Below are positions 33,365-64,000 of a stretch of DNA of 64,000 nt, piece by piece. The notes under the pieces were generated by a model. That model saw only the letters and a list, made by a program, of their open reading frames with translations, was not told the origin of the DNA and searched no databases. Source of the DNA: an uncultured Bacteroidota bacterium (GTDB taxonomy: Bacteria > Bacteroidota > Bacteroidia > Flavobacteriales > Flavobacteriaceae). Numbering within the stretch: the stretch's first letter is position 1; every line of letters begins with the position of its first letter. A program made the translations under genes and the position numbers. The stretch covers positions 1 to 64,000 of the forward strand of contig CACKBL010000005.1 in the NCBI GenBank assembly GCA_902598305.1. The letters are read 5' to 3'.

Positions 33365-35014
33365 TTGTTAAAGGAGCTGACTATTTCAAACTATGCTTTA
33401 ATTGATTATTTGAAGGTTGACTTAACCCAAGGATTTACTTCAATAACTGGAGAAACCGGCGCCGGAAAATCAATTCTCTTAGGAGGTTTGTCTTTAGCCT
33501 TAGGGAAAAGAGCTGACCTAAATTTAGTGAAAGATAAAACAAAAAAATGTTTCGTTGATTTACTATTTTCAATAACAAATCTTAATTTAAAAAATCTCTT
33601 TGATTCATTAGATATAGATTACGATTCATTGACAACAGTAAGAAGAGAAATTATTCCTTCTGGAAAGTCAAGAGCATTTATAAATGATACTCCAGTTAAT
33701 TTGGAAACATTGCAAAAAATTTCATATGAACTTATTGATATTCATTCACAATTTCAAAACCATTTCATTATTAAAGAAGAATATCAAATCGACATTTTAG
33801 ATTTGTTGGCAAAAAATCAAAATTTAATTGAAAAATATAATTTAAACTTTTTTTCCTTTAAAGAACTTAAAAATAAAATAGATAAGCTTGAGGCATCTAG
33901 GGTTAATATGAATCAAGAGAAAGATTATAATACCCATCTCTTAAATGAAATTAAAGCTATTGATGTTAGCGAATCTGTAGATTCAATAGAGCAAAAATTT
34001 AATCAATTAAGTAATTCAGAAGAAATAAATACAACTTTTAATCAGATTTTAAATATTCTCCAACACGAAGAAAATGGAATCAATGTAAAATTAAATCAAG
34101 TAAGATTTTTAATCAAAAAAATATCTAATATTTCTATTGAATACAAAAGAATTTTTGAAAGAATTGAGAGTGTTATTATTGAATTAGATGATATAACTAA
34201 GGATATCAAGAATGAAAATGATATTATTGAATATAACCCTGAAATGAAAGAAATTTTAAGTCAAAAACTAGAAAAAATTTATTCTCTATTCAGAAAGCAT
34301 GAGGTAAATAAATTAGATGACTTAATGTTAATTAAAGAAAAAATAGAAAGAAAGGTTTCAGATACCGAAAATCTTGATATTACCATAAATGAGAACAAAA
34401 AAAAGTTAGTGGAAACAAAATTAGTACTAAATAAACTATCAGAAAAAATTCGACAAAGAAGAAATAAAGTAATACCCGTTCTAAAGAGCCAAATGGAAAA
34501 TTTACTTAAAGACATGGGAATGTTAAATACAATTTTTAAAATCGAACTTAAAGATTCTGATATTTTTTTAAAAAATGGAAAGGACAAGTTATTATTTAAT
34601 TTTTCTGCAAATAAAGGCACTCCACTTGGCCCTTTGAATAAAACAGCGTCTGGAGGTGAATTGTCAAGAATTATGCTCGCACTTAAATCTATTTTATCAA
34701 ATTATAAAAACCTACCGACAATTATTTTTGATGAAATTGATACTGGAGTTTCAGGAGAAATAGCAAACAGTATTGGAAGAATTATGAAAAACATGGCAAT
34801 AAATATGCAGGTGATTTCAATTACACACTTACCGCAGGTCGCTGCAAAAGCAAATAATCATTTCAAAGTTTTTAAAACAATAAGAAACCAAAAAACATCA
34901 ACAGAACTTAAAAATTTAAATTTCAACGAGAGGGTTTCAGAAATTGCTGAAATGCTATCTGGCGACGAATCTACTTCAAGCGCTAGTGATTTGGCGAAGG
35001 AATTACTTAATTAA
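33365..35014 (+). CDS. recN: DNA repair protein RecN
   Basis: An SMC-like ATPase acting in double-strand break repair (549 residues). Walker A TGETGAGKSILLGGL is at about 28-42, a long coiled-coil middle region spans about 150-370, and the signature NKTASGGELSRIMLAL (about 424-439) and Walker B TIIFDEIDTGVSGE (about 453-466) follow. The start must be TTG at 33365 (LLKELTISNYALID); the ATG just upstream is out of frame. Confidence 0.96.
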   Translation: MLKELTISNYALIDYLKVDLTQGFTSITGETGAGKSILLGGLSLALGKRADLNLVKDKTKKCFVDLLFSITNLNLKNLFDSLDIDYDSLTTVRREIIPSGKSRAFINDTPVNLETLQKISYELIDIHSQFQNHFIIKEEYQIDILDLLAKNQNLIEKYNLNFFSFKELKNKIDKLEASRVNMNQEKDYNTHLLNEIKAIDVSESVDSIEQKFNQLSNSEEINTTFNQILNILQHEENGINVKLNQVRFLIKKISNISIEYKRIFERIESVIIELDDITKDIKNENDIIEYNPEMKEILSQKLEKIYSLFRKHEVNKLDDLMLIKEKIERKVSDTENLDITINENKKKLVETKLVLNKLSEKIRQRRNKVIPVLKSQMENLLKDMGMLNTIFKIELKDSDIFLKNGKDKLLFNFSANKGTPLGPLNKTASGGELSRIMLALKSILSNYKNLPTIIFDEIDTGVSGEIANSIGRIMKNMAINMQVISITHLPQVAAKANNHFKVFKTIRNQKTSTELKNLNFNERVSEIAEMLSGDESTSSASDLAKELLN

Positions 35015-53043: not shown

Positions 53044-53073
53044 TTGTAAATAAATCATTTAAACATATATTTG
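53044..53073 (+). promoter_or_regulatory. rpsA promoter (TTG-N19-TAtaTTTG)
   Basis: TTG at 53044-53046, an exact 19-base spacer and TATATTTG at 53066-53073 make the best match to the Bacteroidota consensus in the window. Transcription is predicted from about 53077, giving a leader of about 93 bases. The stretch 52925-53043 before it is AT-rich with no other recognisable signal. Confidence 0.7.
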
Positions 53074-53089
53074 CAGACTCTTTGATTAA

Positions 53090-53152
53090 GTGAAACGGAG
53101 TTTCATTAACCCTTCTGTTAATTTCAATTAAAGTTTCACAAATTATTAACAG
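53090..53152 (+). promoter_or_regulatory. Structured rpsA leader RNA with alternative folds
   Basis: Two folds share the same bases. Fold 1 has local hairpins: TGAAAC (53091-53096) with GTTTCA (53100-53105), and TTAAC (53106-53110) with GTTAA (53117-53121). Fold 2 has GTGAAAC (53090-53096) with GTTTCAC (53133-53139) and CTGTTAA (53115-53121) with TTAACAG (53146-53152); these 7-bp stems interleave, making an H-type pseudoknot. All stems are perfect. It sits between the promoter and the rpsA ATG at 53170, so it may control S1 synthesis. Confidence 0.5.
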
Positions 53153-53169
53153 GATACAAATTTAAAATT

Positions 53170-55293
53170 ATGGCTAAGAAAGAAAAAGATAAAAAAGAAA
53201 AACCTAAAAACGTTGGAATAAAAAAGAAAACTTCGTCAAAACCAACAAATTCATCTGCCAAAACAACTACTCAAAATAAAACTACTTCTGCTAAAAAGTC
53301 AGTTCCTACGTCAAAAAAAGAAACTAAACTAAAAAAAACAAAATCAGTTGCAGATAAAAAAGAATCGGTTAAAACTAAAAAAATAACTTCAAAAAAAGTA
53401 AATGATTCTGGAGAAGATAAATTAAAACCTACCTCTAAAACTAAAACAAAACCGAAACAAAAAAAAGAATCAGGATTAAATGAAAAAGCTCAGAAAGAAG
53501 TGATAAAAAAATCACCAAAACCTTCTGTTAAAAAATCAAAAATAGTAAAAGAAAAAACTGATGAAAAGCTTGCTGATTTCGATTGGCATCACTACGAAGA
53601 AGGTTTAGATGAAATTGACAATAAAAAAATTGAGGAATTTGAAAAACTAGTTTCAAAAAACTTCGTTGACACCACAGATGAGGATGTTATTGAAGGAGTC
53701 GTAGTACATATGACAGACAGAGAAGCTATAATAGATATTAATGCTAAATCTGAAGGAGTTATTTCTTTGAACGAATTCAGATACAACACTAATCTGAAAA
53801 TTGGTGATAAGGTTGAGGTAATAGTTGATATGAGAGAAGACAAAACGGGTCAATTAATCTTATCACACAGAAAAGCAAGAACTATAAAAGCATGGGAAAG
53901 AGTTAATAATGCACACGATAGTGGTGAAATAGTAAATGGTTACGTTAAATGTAGAACAAAAGGTGGAATGATAGTTGATGTTTTTGGAATAGAAGCTTTT
54001 CTCCCAGGTTCTCAAATTGATGTAAAACCAATAAGGGATTATGATCAATTTGTAGACAAAACAATGGAATTTAAAGTTGTTAAAATTAATCATGAATTTA
54101 AAAATGTGGTTGTTTCTCATAAAGCACTTATAGAAGCTGATATTGAAGAGCAAAAGAAAGAGATTATTGGCCAATTAGAAAAAGGTCAAGTTCTTGAAGG
54201 AACAGTTAAAAACATCACTTCGTATGGGGTTTTCATCGATCTTGGTGGTGTCGACGGTTTAATACACATTACCGATTTGTCTTGGAGCAGGATAATTCAC
54301 CCTAGTGAAATTTTGGAACTTGATCAAAAACTTAATGTTGTTATTTTAGATTTTGATGATAATAAATCTAGAATTCAATTAGGATTAAAACAACTCAGCG
54401 ACCATCCTTGGGATAAACTAGGAGACGATGTTAAGGAAGGATCAAAGGTTAAAGGAAAAGTAGTTGTGATTGCTGATTATGGAGCCTTTATTGAAATTGA
54501 AGATGGTGTTGAGGGTCTAGTTCACGTCTCGGAAATGTCTTGGTCAACTCATCTAAGGTCTGCTCAAGATTTTGTAAATGTTGGAGATGAGGTTGAAGCT
54601 CAAATTCTCACCATGGATAGAGAGTCAAGAAAAATGTCATTGGGAATTAAGCAATTAACTCAAGACCCTTGGACTGACATAACTTCTAAATATCCCGTTG
54701 GATCTAAACATAAAGGTATAGTTAGAAACTTCACAAACTTTGGGGTTTTTATTGAACTTGAAGAAGGAATTGATGGTTTGGTTTATATATCTGATTTGTC
54801 CTGGACGAAAAAAGTTAAACATCCTTCTGAAATTTTGACAGTGGGCGATACTATAGATGTAATTGTTATGGAATTAGATGTTGACGGAAGGAAGTTGAGT
54901 CTTGGACATAAACAAACAAAAGAAAATCCATGGGATAAGTATGAAAAAGAGTTTTCTGAAGGAACCGTACATAATGTTGAGTTATCAGAAATTGTGGATA
55001 AGGGAGCAACTATAGATTTTAATGAAAATATAACTGCTTTTGTCCCTTCAAGACACATGGAAAAAGAAGATGGTAGTAGATTAGGTCTAAAGGAAAAAGT
55101 TAAATTTAAGATTATTGAGTTTAATAAAGATTTCAAACGGGTAGTTGCATCTCATACTTTAACATATAGAAAAGACGATAGAAAAAGTAAAGCCAAAATT
55201 AAAAATCAAACCAACTCTGATTCAAATGAAAAAGCAACACTTGGAGATTTAGATGCTCTAGCAGATCTAAAAGAAAAAATGGAAAAAAAGTAA
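53170..55293 (+). CDS. rpsA: 30S ribosomal protein S1 with lysine-rich N-terminal tail
   Basis: Binds mRNA at the ribosome and helps start translation where Shine-Dalgarno pairing is absent (707 residues). Six S1 OB-fold repeats are visible from about residue 160 to 680, for example GTVKNITSYGVFIDLGGVDG and GKVVVIADYGAFIEIEDGVEG. Before the conserved FDWHHYEEG (from residue 137) lies a tail of 136 residues with 47 lysines and many Ser/Thr, like a histone H1 or AlgP tail. Bacteroidota S1 usually starts closer to this motif. The tail is in frame with no internal stop, and ATG at 53170 is the only good start after the leader. Confidence 0.95.
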   Translation: MAKKEKDKKEKPKNVGIKKKTSSKPTNSSAKTTTQNKTTSAKKSVPTSKKETKLKKTKSVADKKESVKTKKITSKKVNDSGEDKLKPTSKTKTKPKQKKESGLNEKAQKEVIKKSPKPSVKKSKIVKEKTDEKLADFDWHHYEEGLDEIDNKKIEEFEKLVSKNFVDTTDEDVIEGVVVHMTDREAIIDINAKSEGVISLNEFRYNTNLKIGDKVEVIVDMREDKTGQLILSHRKARTIKAWERVNNAHDSGEIVNGYVKCRTKGGMIVDVFGIEAFLPGSQIDVKPIRDYDQFVDKTMEFKVVKINHEFKNVVVSHKALIEADIEEQKKEIIGQLEKGQVLEGTVKNITSYGVFIDLGGVDGLIHITDLSWSRIIHPSEILELDQKLNVVILDFDDNKSRIQLGLKQLSDHPWDKLGDDVKEGSKVKGKVVVIADYGAFIEIEDGVEGLVHVSEMSWSTHLRSAQDFVNVGDEVEAQILTMDRESRKMSLGIKQLTQDPWTDITSKYPVGSKHKGIVRNFTNFGVFIELEEGIDGLVYISDLSWTKKVKHPSEILTVGDTIDVIVMELDVDGRKLSLGHKQTKENPWDKYEKEFSEGTVHNVELSEIVDKGATIDFNENITAFVPSRHMEKEDGSRLGLKEKVKFKIIEFNKDFKRVVASHTLTYRKDDRKSKAKIKNQTNSDSNEKATLGDLDALADLKEKMEKK

Positions 55294-63750: not shown

Positions 63751-63756
63751 CAATGC

Positions 63757-64000
63757 AGGTCTTCTTATCGCTCTAAATTTAGAGAGGAAAGTCCGGACAC
63801 CGAAGAGCAGTATAGCGGGTAATACCCGTCGATTATCGATACGATAATTAGGACTAGTGCAACAGAAAGTATGTACAGGAAAGCTGTAGTGAAATCATGT
63901 AAACTCTATGCGGTGCAACGCCAAATATATCTGCATTTAAGAGTTGCTCGTTCTTTGTAGAGGGGTAGGCGGTTTGAGTTTTTGAGTAATTAAAAACCTA
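63757..64000 (+). ncRNA. rnpB: RNase P RNA (5' part, cut by window end)
   Basis: The catalytic RNA that removes 5' leaders from pre-tRNAs. The universal motif GAGGAAAGTCCGGAC is at 63784-63798, the preceding P3 hairpin CTCTAAATTTAGAG at 63771-63784, a CGGGT-AAT-ACCCG stem at 63816-63828, the conserved GTGCAACAGAAAG at 63857-63869, GGTGCAACGCC at 63913-63923 and GAGGGGTAGGC at 63960-63970. The 3' end (the usual GATAAAT block and the P1 partner strand) lies beyond the window, so the gene is partial. The exact 5' end is approximate. Confidence 0.95.

Follow-up and report, generated by a model that had tools for sequence, protein, structure and literature searches.

A conserved pseudoknotted leader RNA upstream of rpsA in Flavobacteriales, a probable operator for ribosomal protein S1

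Introduction

In gammaproteobacteria the ribosomal protein S1 represses its own synthesis, competing with the 30S subunit at an rpsA start that lacks a Shine-Dalgarno (SD) sequence, and pseudoknots are high-affinity targets of S1 (PMC10931766). Bacteroidota do without Shine-Dalgarno pairing when they begin translation, and S1 has been put forward as the replacement (PMC6847099). An A at -12/-13 favours initiation in Flavobacterium johnsoniae, with domain 4 of S1 placed near -12 to -15 (PMC6847099). The ribosomal protein leaders (r-leaders) reported by Eckert and Weinberg (2020) include those of S4, S15 and S16 in Flavobacteria and of L13 and S4 in Bacteroidia (PMC7247131). The text of PMC9723704, on F. 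psychrophilum and 64 of its structured 5′ regions, does not name rpsA. A search of the open-licence literature and of Rfam found no rpsA or S1 leader outside the gammaproteobacteria. The motifs of Weinberg et al. from 2017 are reportedly included in Rfam.

The subject of this study is the leader of rpsA in a stretch of 64,000 nucleotides (the window; contig CACKBL010000005.1, positions 1 to 64,000) from an uncultured bacterium of the family Flavobacteriaceae with a source genome of 1.8 Mb. It is interpreted as a cis-acting leader RNA, new to Rfam, that would most likely serve as the operator for repression of rpsA translation by free S1, a reading to which a probability of roughly 0.7 is given.

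The rpsA locus and its promoter

A promoter of the Bacteroidetes type, for which TAnnTTTG is the known consensus of the phylum, precedes rpsA in the window (Table 1), and its TTTGC occupies the identical place in all aligned leaders. The TTG and TATATTTG elements put the start of the rpsA transcript near 53077, so that the leader of about 93 nt predicted in the first-pass annotation is plausible. With this predicted 5′ end the leader RNA would plausibly start at or adjoining P1, its first helix. The accompanying claim that a leader of such length is outstanding in the window did not hold, the distances from TAnnTTTG to the ATG of other open reading frames running from 3 to 203 nt, many of which may reflect chance matches. 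TAnnTTTG is found 89-130 nt upstream of the ATGs at 33908, 41583, 3007 and 8057, some of which may have further long leaders and some of which may be chance.

The S1 encoded in the window carries an N-terminal extension of ~130 residues rich in Lys, Ser and Thr (MAKKEKDKKEKPKN..., window 53170-53560), while the S1 of most Flavobacteriaceae starts with MAEEK or MSEKE and has a much shorter tail. At the far end of the window, positions 63752-64000 hold a bacterial RNase P class A RNA (136 bits) that is cut by the window end.

Table 1. Features of the rpsA locus in the window. Z values are from the cognate-pairing test with 37 representatives and with the hold-out set, in that order.
Feature	Positions	Strand	Basis or remark
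Bacteroidetes-type promoter: TTG 53044-53046, 19 bp, TATATTTG 53066-53073	53044..53073	+	Sequence, consensus fit
P1 5′ strand ACUC	53077..53080	+	Pairs with 53098-53101; Z -4.0, -5.0
P2 5′ strand UUGA	53082..53085	+	Pairs with 53124-53127; Z -5.4 in both sets
P3 5′ strand GUGAAAC, loop-loop (kissing) helix	53090..53096	+	Pairs with 53133-53139; Z -7.7, -6.1
First-pass hairpin 1 (53091-53096/53100-53105)	53091..53105	+	In window sequence, not conserved
P1 3′ strand GAGU	53098..53101	+	As P1 5′ strand
First-pass hairpin 2 (53106-53110/53117-53121)	53106..53121	+	Weak or no support
P4 5′ strand UUCUGUUAAU	53113..53122	+	Pairs with 53145-53154; Z -11.8, -11.6
P2 3′ strand UCAA	53124..53127	+	As P2 5′ strand
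P3 3′ strand GUUUCAC	53133..53139	+	As P3 5′ strand
P4 3′ strand AUUAACAGGA	53145..53154	+	As P4 5′ strand
Conserved AUACAAAU, flush with P4	53154..53161	+	-16 to -9 of AUG
rpsA, ribosomal protein bS1, 707 aa	53170..55293	+	ORF; S1 relatives in 80 rpsA loci

Conserved helices of the leader

The rpsA leader RNA is genuine and exceeds in size what the first-pass annotation described. The four stems proposed there, two local hairpins and two longer interleaved pairings, are present, perfectly complementary and mutually exclusive as described. The longer pairings correspond to P3 (53090/53139) and P4 (53121/53146), with P4 now a helix of 10 bp including one G-U where a shorter stem had been given, while P1, P2 and AUACAAAU had been absent from that description.

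A protein search yielded 80 rpsA loci, nearly all from Flavobacteriaceae, and in 79 of these a clearly related leader extends between the promoter TTTGC and an ATACAA that precedes the start codon. The remaining locus (L007) begins inside rpsA. Plain MAFFT alignment of 78 leaders gave TTTGC, CTTC and ATACAA as near-fixed points. In this sequence-only alignment 86.9% of cells pair in P1-P4 with two-sided changes in 21 of 25 pairs, rising to 95.5% of cells and seven of eight pairs for P4, and the covariation score was 0.416 compared with 0.245 for shuffled alignments and 0.11-0.18 for slid structures. As shuffles ignore relatedness, an alignment-free test of cognate pairing was added, in which the own 3′ segment of each of 37 representatives was set against the 3′ segments of other species. 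All four helices gave negative Z values, that of P1 being the weakest and that of P4 the strongest (Table 1). A structure-free scan of 443 anchored segment pairs by the same test had a median of 0 and its top 45 results all lay over or next to P1-P4, such that conserved pairing besides P1-P4 was rejected from among the strongest results of this unbiased scan.

A model of the leader (R1), in which pairs were defined for P1 and P4 only with P2 and P3 left unpaired, supplied from its matches a hold-out set of 32 divergent leaders with <80% similarity to any training sequence. The four helices were recovered in this set (Table 1) with four control segment pairs at Z +1.7 to -0.4, although as R1 favours P1 and P4 only the hold-out values of P2 and P3 are independent of selection. 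The compensatory changes expected by the first-pass annotation in its interleaved stems are found, with P3 and P4 covarying across relatives. Within the window's genus P1 is conserved and there are compensatory changes in P3, where GUGAAAC/GUUUCAC becomes GUGAAGC/GCUUCAC, and in P2, where UUGA/UCAA becomes UCGA/UCGA. The helix consensus in relatives is CCUUUU/AAAAGG for P1, AGCGA/UCGCU for P2, GGAAAG/CUUUCC for P3 and UUCUGUGU/AYACAGAA for P4. These sequence comparisons show that P1, P2, P3 and P4 are each under selection as a helix.

Distribution of the leader and its association with rpsA

R1 has a single match per genome in 230 of the 249 Flavobacteriaceae genomes (204 of the 214 of high quality) and in all seven genomes of the window's genus; among 296 genomes sampled across Flavobacteriales 137 gave a match, in about ten families. 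No match was found in 19 of the 249 Flavobacteriaceae genomes and in many other Bacteroidia; a second model (R2) found the leader in genome G305 where R1 had missed it, indicating that part of the missing matches is lost sensitivity. A tblastn search located S1 in 96 of the 98 loci that were fetched; the remaining two are contig-end pieces of 500-590 bases. In the parsed loci S1 lies directly downstream of the leader on the same strand. The sole match in the window's genome is at rpsA, even at E up to 10. Genome G477 gave two weak matches, the better-scoring of which lacks S1 and was discarded as a false positive. The leader is strictly associated with rpsA, S1 being downstream in all checkable loci, and as a conserved structured RNA that immediately precedes a ribosomal protein gene and is restricted to rpsA it shares these two features with autogenous r-leaders. 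Rfam 15 contains no family that matches the leader of the window, 18 rpsA loci or the consensus-like leader L035 at or above the gathering threshold, which rules out a known Rfam family as its identity and agrees with the first-pass annotation, in which no named RNA family was known for it.

R2 extended the set of rpsA leaders to further families of the class, some of these leaders being very short (77-87 nt). Among 40 rpsA upstream regions read from other families a P4-like stem directly adjoins ATACAA in about one third (families f19, f23, f24, f33, f34, f36, f53, f56 and f58, plus f40 and f85), while no such leader was seen in those read from families such as f17, f29, f48 and f52. In the leaders with this arrangement the loop of P4 base-pairs with a segment further upstream, mostly one inside a possible hairpin loop, as in L221 where UGCGG/CCGCA pairing falls within the loop of GGCUGUUU/AAACAGCU, with ACCGG/CCGGU in L207 and GUAGAU/AUCUAC in L199. 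Outside the order the cognate-pairing Z was -7.3 for P4 in 17 leaders and -5.3 for P3, the loop-loop helix, in 15, values that are somewhat favourable as the leaders were picked by the ATACAA motif and by eye. These comparisons indicate that a simpler core, consisting of P4, AUACAA and an upstream hairpin that kisses through its loop, is shared by about ten families outside Flavobacteriales. The core is scattered across the class (L217, L228, L236 and others) and absent in other families, which suggests repeated loss or repeated gain. The class- and phylum-level matches L200, L202, L203 and L204 have no S1 downstream and were rejected as false positives. Searching the class with an exact IUPAC pattern gave zero matches, the pattern being too strict for this to carry much information.

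The AUACAAA motif and its spacing from the start codon

ATACAA is present in all 78 aligned leaders and followed by A in 77 of them, usually lying 8-18 nt from the AUG, a short distance that is mostly constant, and it is retained together with P4 in leaders outside the order. AUACAAA and parts of P4 are the only near-invariant parts of the leader, the helices varying freely in sequence. In the window AUACAAAU overlaps the stretch of mRNA at -12 to -15 that has been placed near S1 on the 30S subunit (PMC6847099).

In 13 loci (L019, L028, L031, L035, L046, L048, L051, L056, L060, L061, L073, L075 and L082) an extra hairpin, P5, is found between AUACAAA and the AUG, beginning ~2-3 nt past AUACAAAN and stopping ~11-17 nt short of the AUG such that the unpaired spacing remains about 13-20 nt. 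The sequences of P5 differ by lineage, so that it seems to have had more than one origin, each with the unpaired spacing kept, and these loci suggest that the spacing from AUACAAA to the AUG matters.

Topology

In Flavobacteriales P1, P3 and P4 support a kissing hairpin of the ABACBC type (P1-P3-P1′-P4-P3′-P4′). The first-pass annotation had proposed an H-type pseudoknot; P3 and P4 do cross in this way (ABAB) and both are supported, and the pair belongs to a larger kissing-hairpin structure plus a crossing helix. With P2 included the strand order is P1 P2 P3 P1′ P4 P2′ P3′ P4′ or ABCADBCD, with a computed genus of 1, and is the last of the four irreducible patterns of that genus. For the 1939 pseudoknotted structures of a published survey, Table 3 gives ABAB (1688), ABACBC (365) and ABCABC (51) at genus 1 and does not list ABCADBCD (PMC3390330). 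If all the helices coexist, the leader would exemplify an RNA topology that this survey lacks.

All four helices can form without overlap in 71 of 80 and in 91 of 96 leaders compared with ~60% of shuffled controls, a permissive control that the leaders exceed mildly and that carries little information on coexistence. Covariation speaks for each helix singly, not for joint formation. The combined proposal that all four helices coexist as a natural ABCADBCD RNA, that the leader is an S1-sensing operator and that P2 was added to an older kissing hairpin still seen in other Bacteroidia is therefore put forward tentatively, at somewhat less than even odds.

Regulation of rpsA by the leader

By its position and gene association the leader is probably a self-regulatory S1 leader as the first-pass annotation had suggested, with the qualification that it is not confined to Flavobacteriia as proposed there. 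On the comparative evidence hairpins P1 and P4 are joined by pairing of their loops (P3, and in Flavobacteriales also P2), with the end of P4 abutting AUACAAA at the place of S1 on the initiating 30S subunit. S1 free of ribosomes may bind both the folded leader and the AUACAAA tail, stabilising the fold, and the folded leader with bound S1 would then block the loading of a 30S subunit carrying its own S1 at the SD-less start. When S1 is scarce the 30S subunit would win, opening P4 and allowing rpsA to be translated. Inspection of the leader by eye revealed no hairpin followed by a T run, which points to translational control rather than termination.

The gene association fits S1 and another sensor of translation alike. 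Furthermore the fold described for the rpsA leader of gammaproteobacteria is another one, so that the fold seen in Flavobacteriales is not a requirement of S1. The fold begins at or beside the predicted 5′ end and AUACAAA falls within the S1 zone, which would also suit a constitutive element for translation or stability, the 5′ fold protecting the end of the mRNA and AUACAAA acting as a standby or S1 loading site with no feedback. In keeping with such a role, supplying extra S1 stimulated initiation on an SD-less mRNA in F. johnsoniae (PMC9976891), and for tisB a standby site requiring a pseudoknot has been described (PMC7708055). However, four covarying helices, two of them loop-loop, exceed the needs of a protective hairpin and the element is present as a single copy per genome at the S1 gene alone, making a constitutive role unlikely.

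S2 is the anchor of S1 on the ribosome, and complex pseudoknotted folds occur in riboswitches. A leader that senses a signal other than S1, such as another ribosomal protein (for example S2), the state of ribosome assembly, a small molecule or temperature, would be in keeping with both, but in the genomes searched the leader was present at rpsA only, and its freely varying helices are unlike a small-molecule pocket, near-invariance being limited to AUACAAA and parts of P4. Such sensing is considered a little less probable than a constitutive role.

The alternation of two local hairpins with the pseudoknot, as suggested in the first-pass annotation, is contradicted by the comparison of relatives and very improbable. 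In its favour, neither hairpin has a mismatch in the window and hairpin 1 appears together with P4 in the nested minimum-energy fold. However, none of the seven close relatives aligned has hairpin 1, which forms in the window sequence alone of the eight and shows no covariation (Z +0.6 with 37 representatives, -0.7 in the hold-out), while hairpin 2 has a weak Z (-2.9 and -2.3, respectively) and pairs near chance level (46% of cells compared with 44% when shuffled).

Repression by free S1 is preferred among these readings, and the leader would then be an S1 leader outside the gammaproteobacteria. With a near-invariant AUACAAA at the position of S1, it would offer a natural target of high information for probing S1 recognition.

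Comparison with known systems

The rpsA leader belongs to a known kind of RNA, the r-leader, in which it forms a new family with an unusual fold. It resembles the r-leaders of Eckert and Weinberg (2020) in being a conserved structured ribosomal protein leader in Bacteroidota, but none of those 20 belongs to rpsA and the word pseudoknot is absent from their text (PMC7247131). A leader pseudoknot is needed for autogenous repression at the uS15 operators of E. coli and of mycobacterial rpsO, the latter pseudoknot lying upstream of the start site as in the rpsA leader of Flavobacteriales (PMC10931766); these operators differ in gene and protein and have a single pseudoknot with no kissing hairpins. 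Autoregulation of a 30S protein at initiation is known in the same order from rpsU (bS21) of F. johnsoniae, which differs in acting via an extended SD and ribosomes without bS21 rather than through a leader fold (PMC9976891).

The gammaproteobacterial rpsA leader, as known from E. coli, shares with the Flavobacteriales leader the gene, a start without canonical SD and a structured leader, and there S1 competes with the 30S subunit (PMC10931766). Its specific fold has AU-rich single-stranded stretches and is conserved in several gammaproteobacterial families (PMC10931766). Compared by description only, the two differ in that neither kissing hairpins nor AUACAAA are reported for the gammaproteobacterial leader in the same review (PMC10931766). 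Set apart by description in this way, the rpsA leaders of Flavobacteriales and gammaproteobacteria look like RNAs of independent origin.
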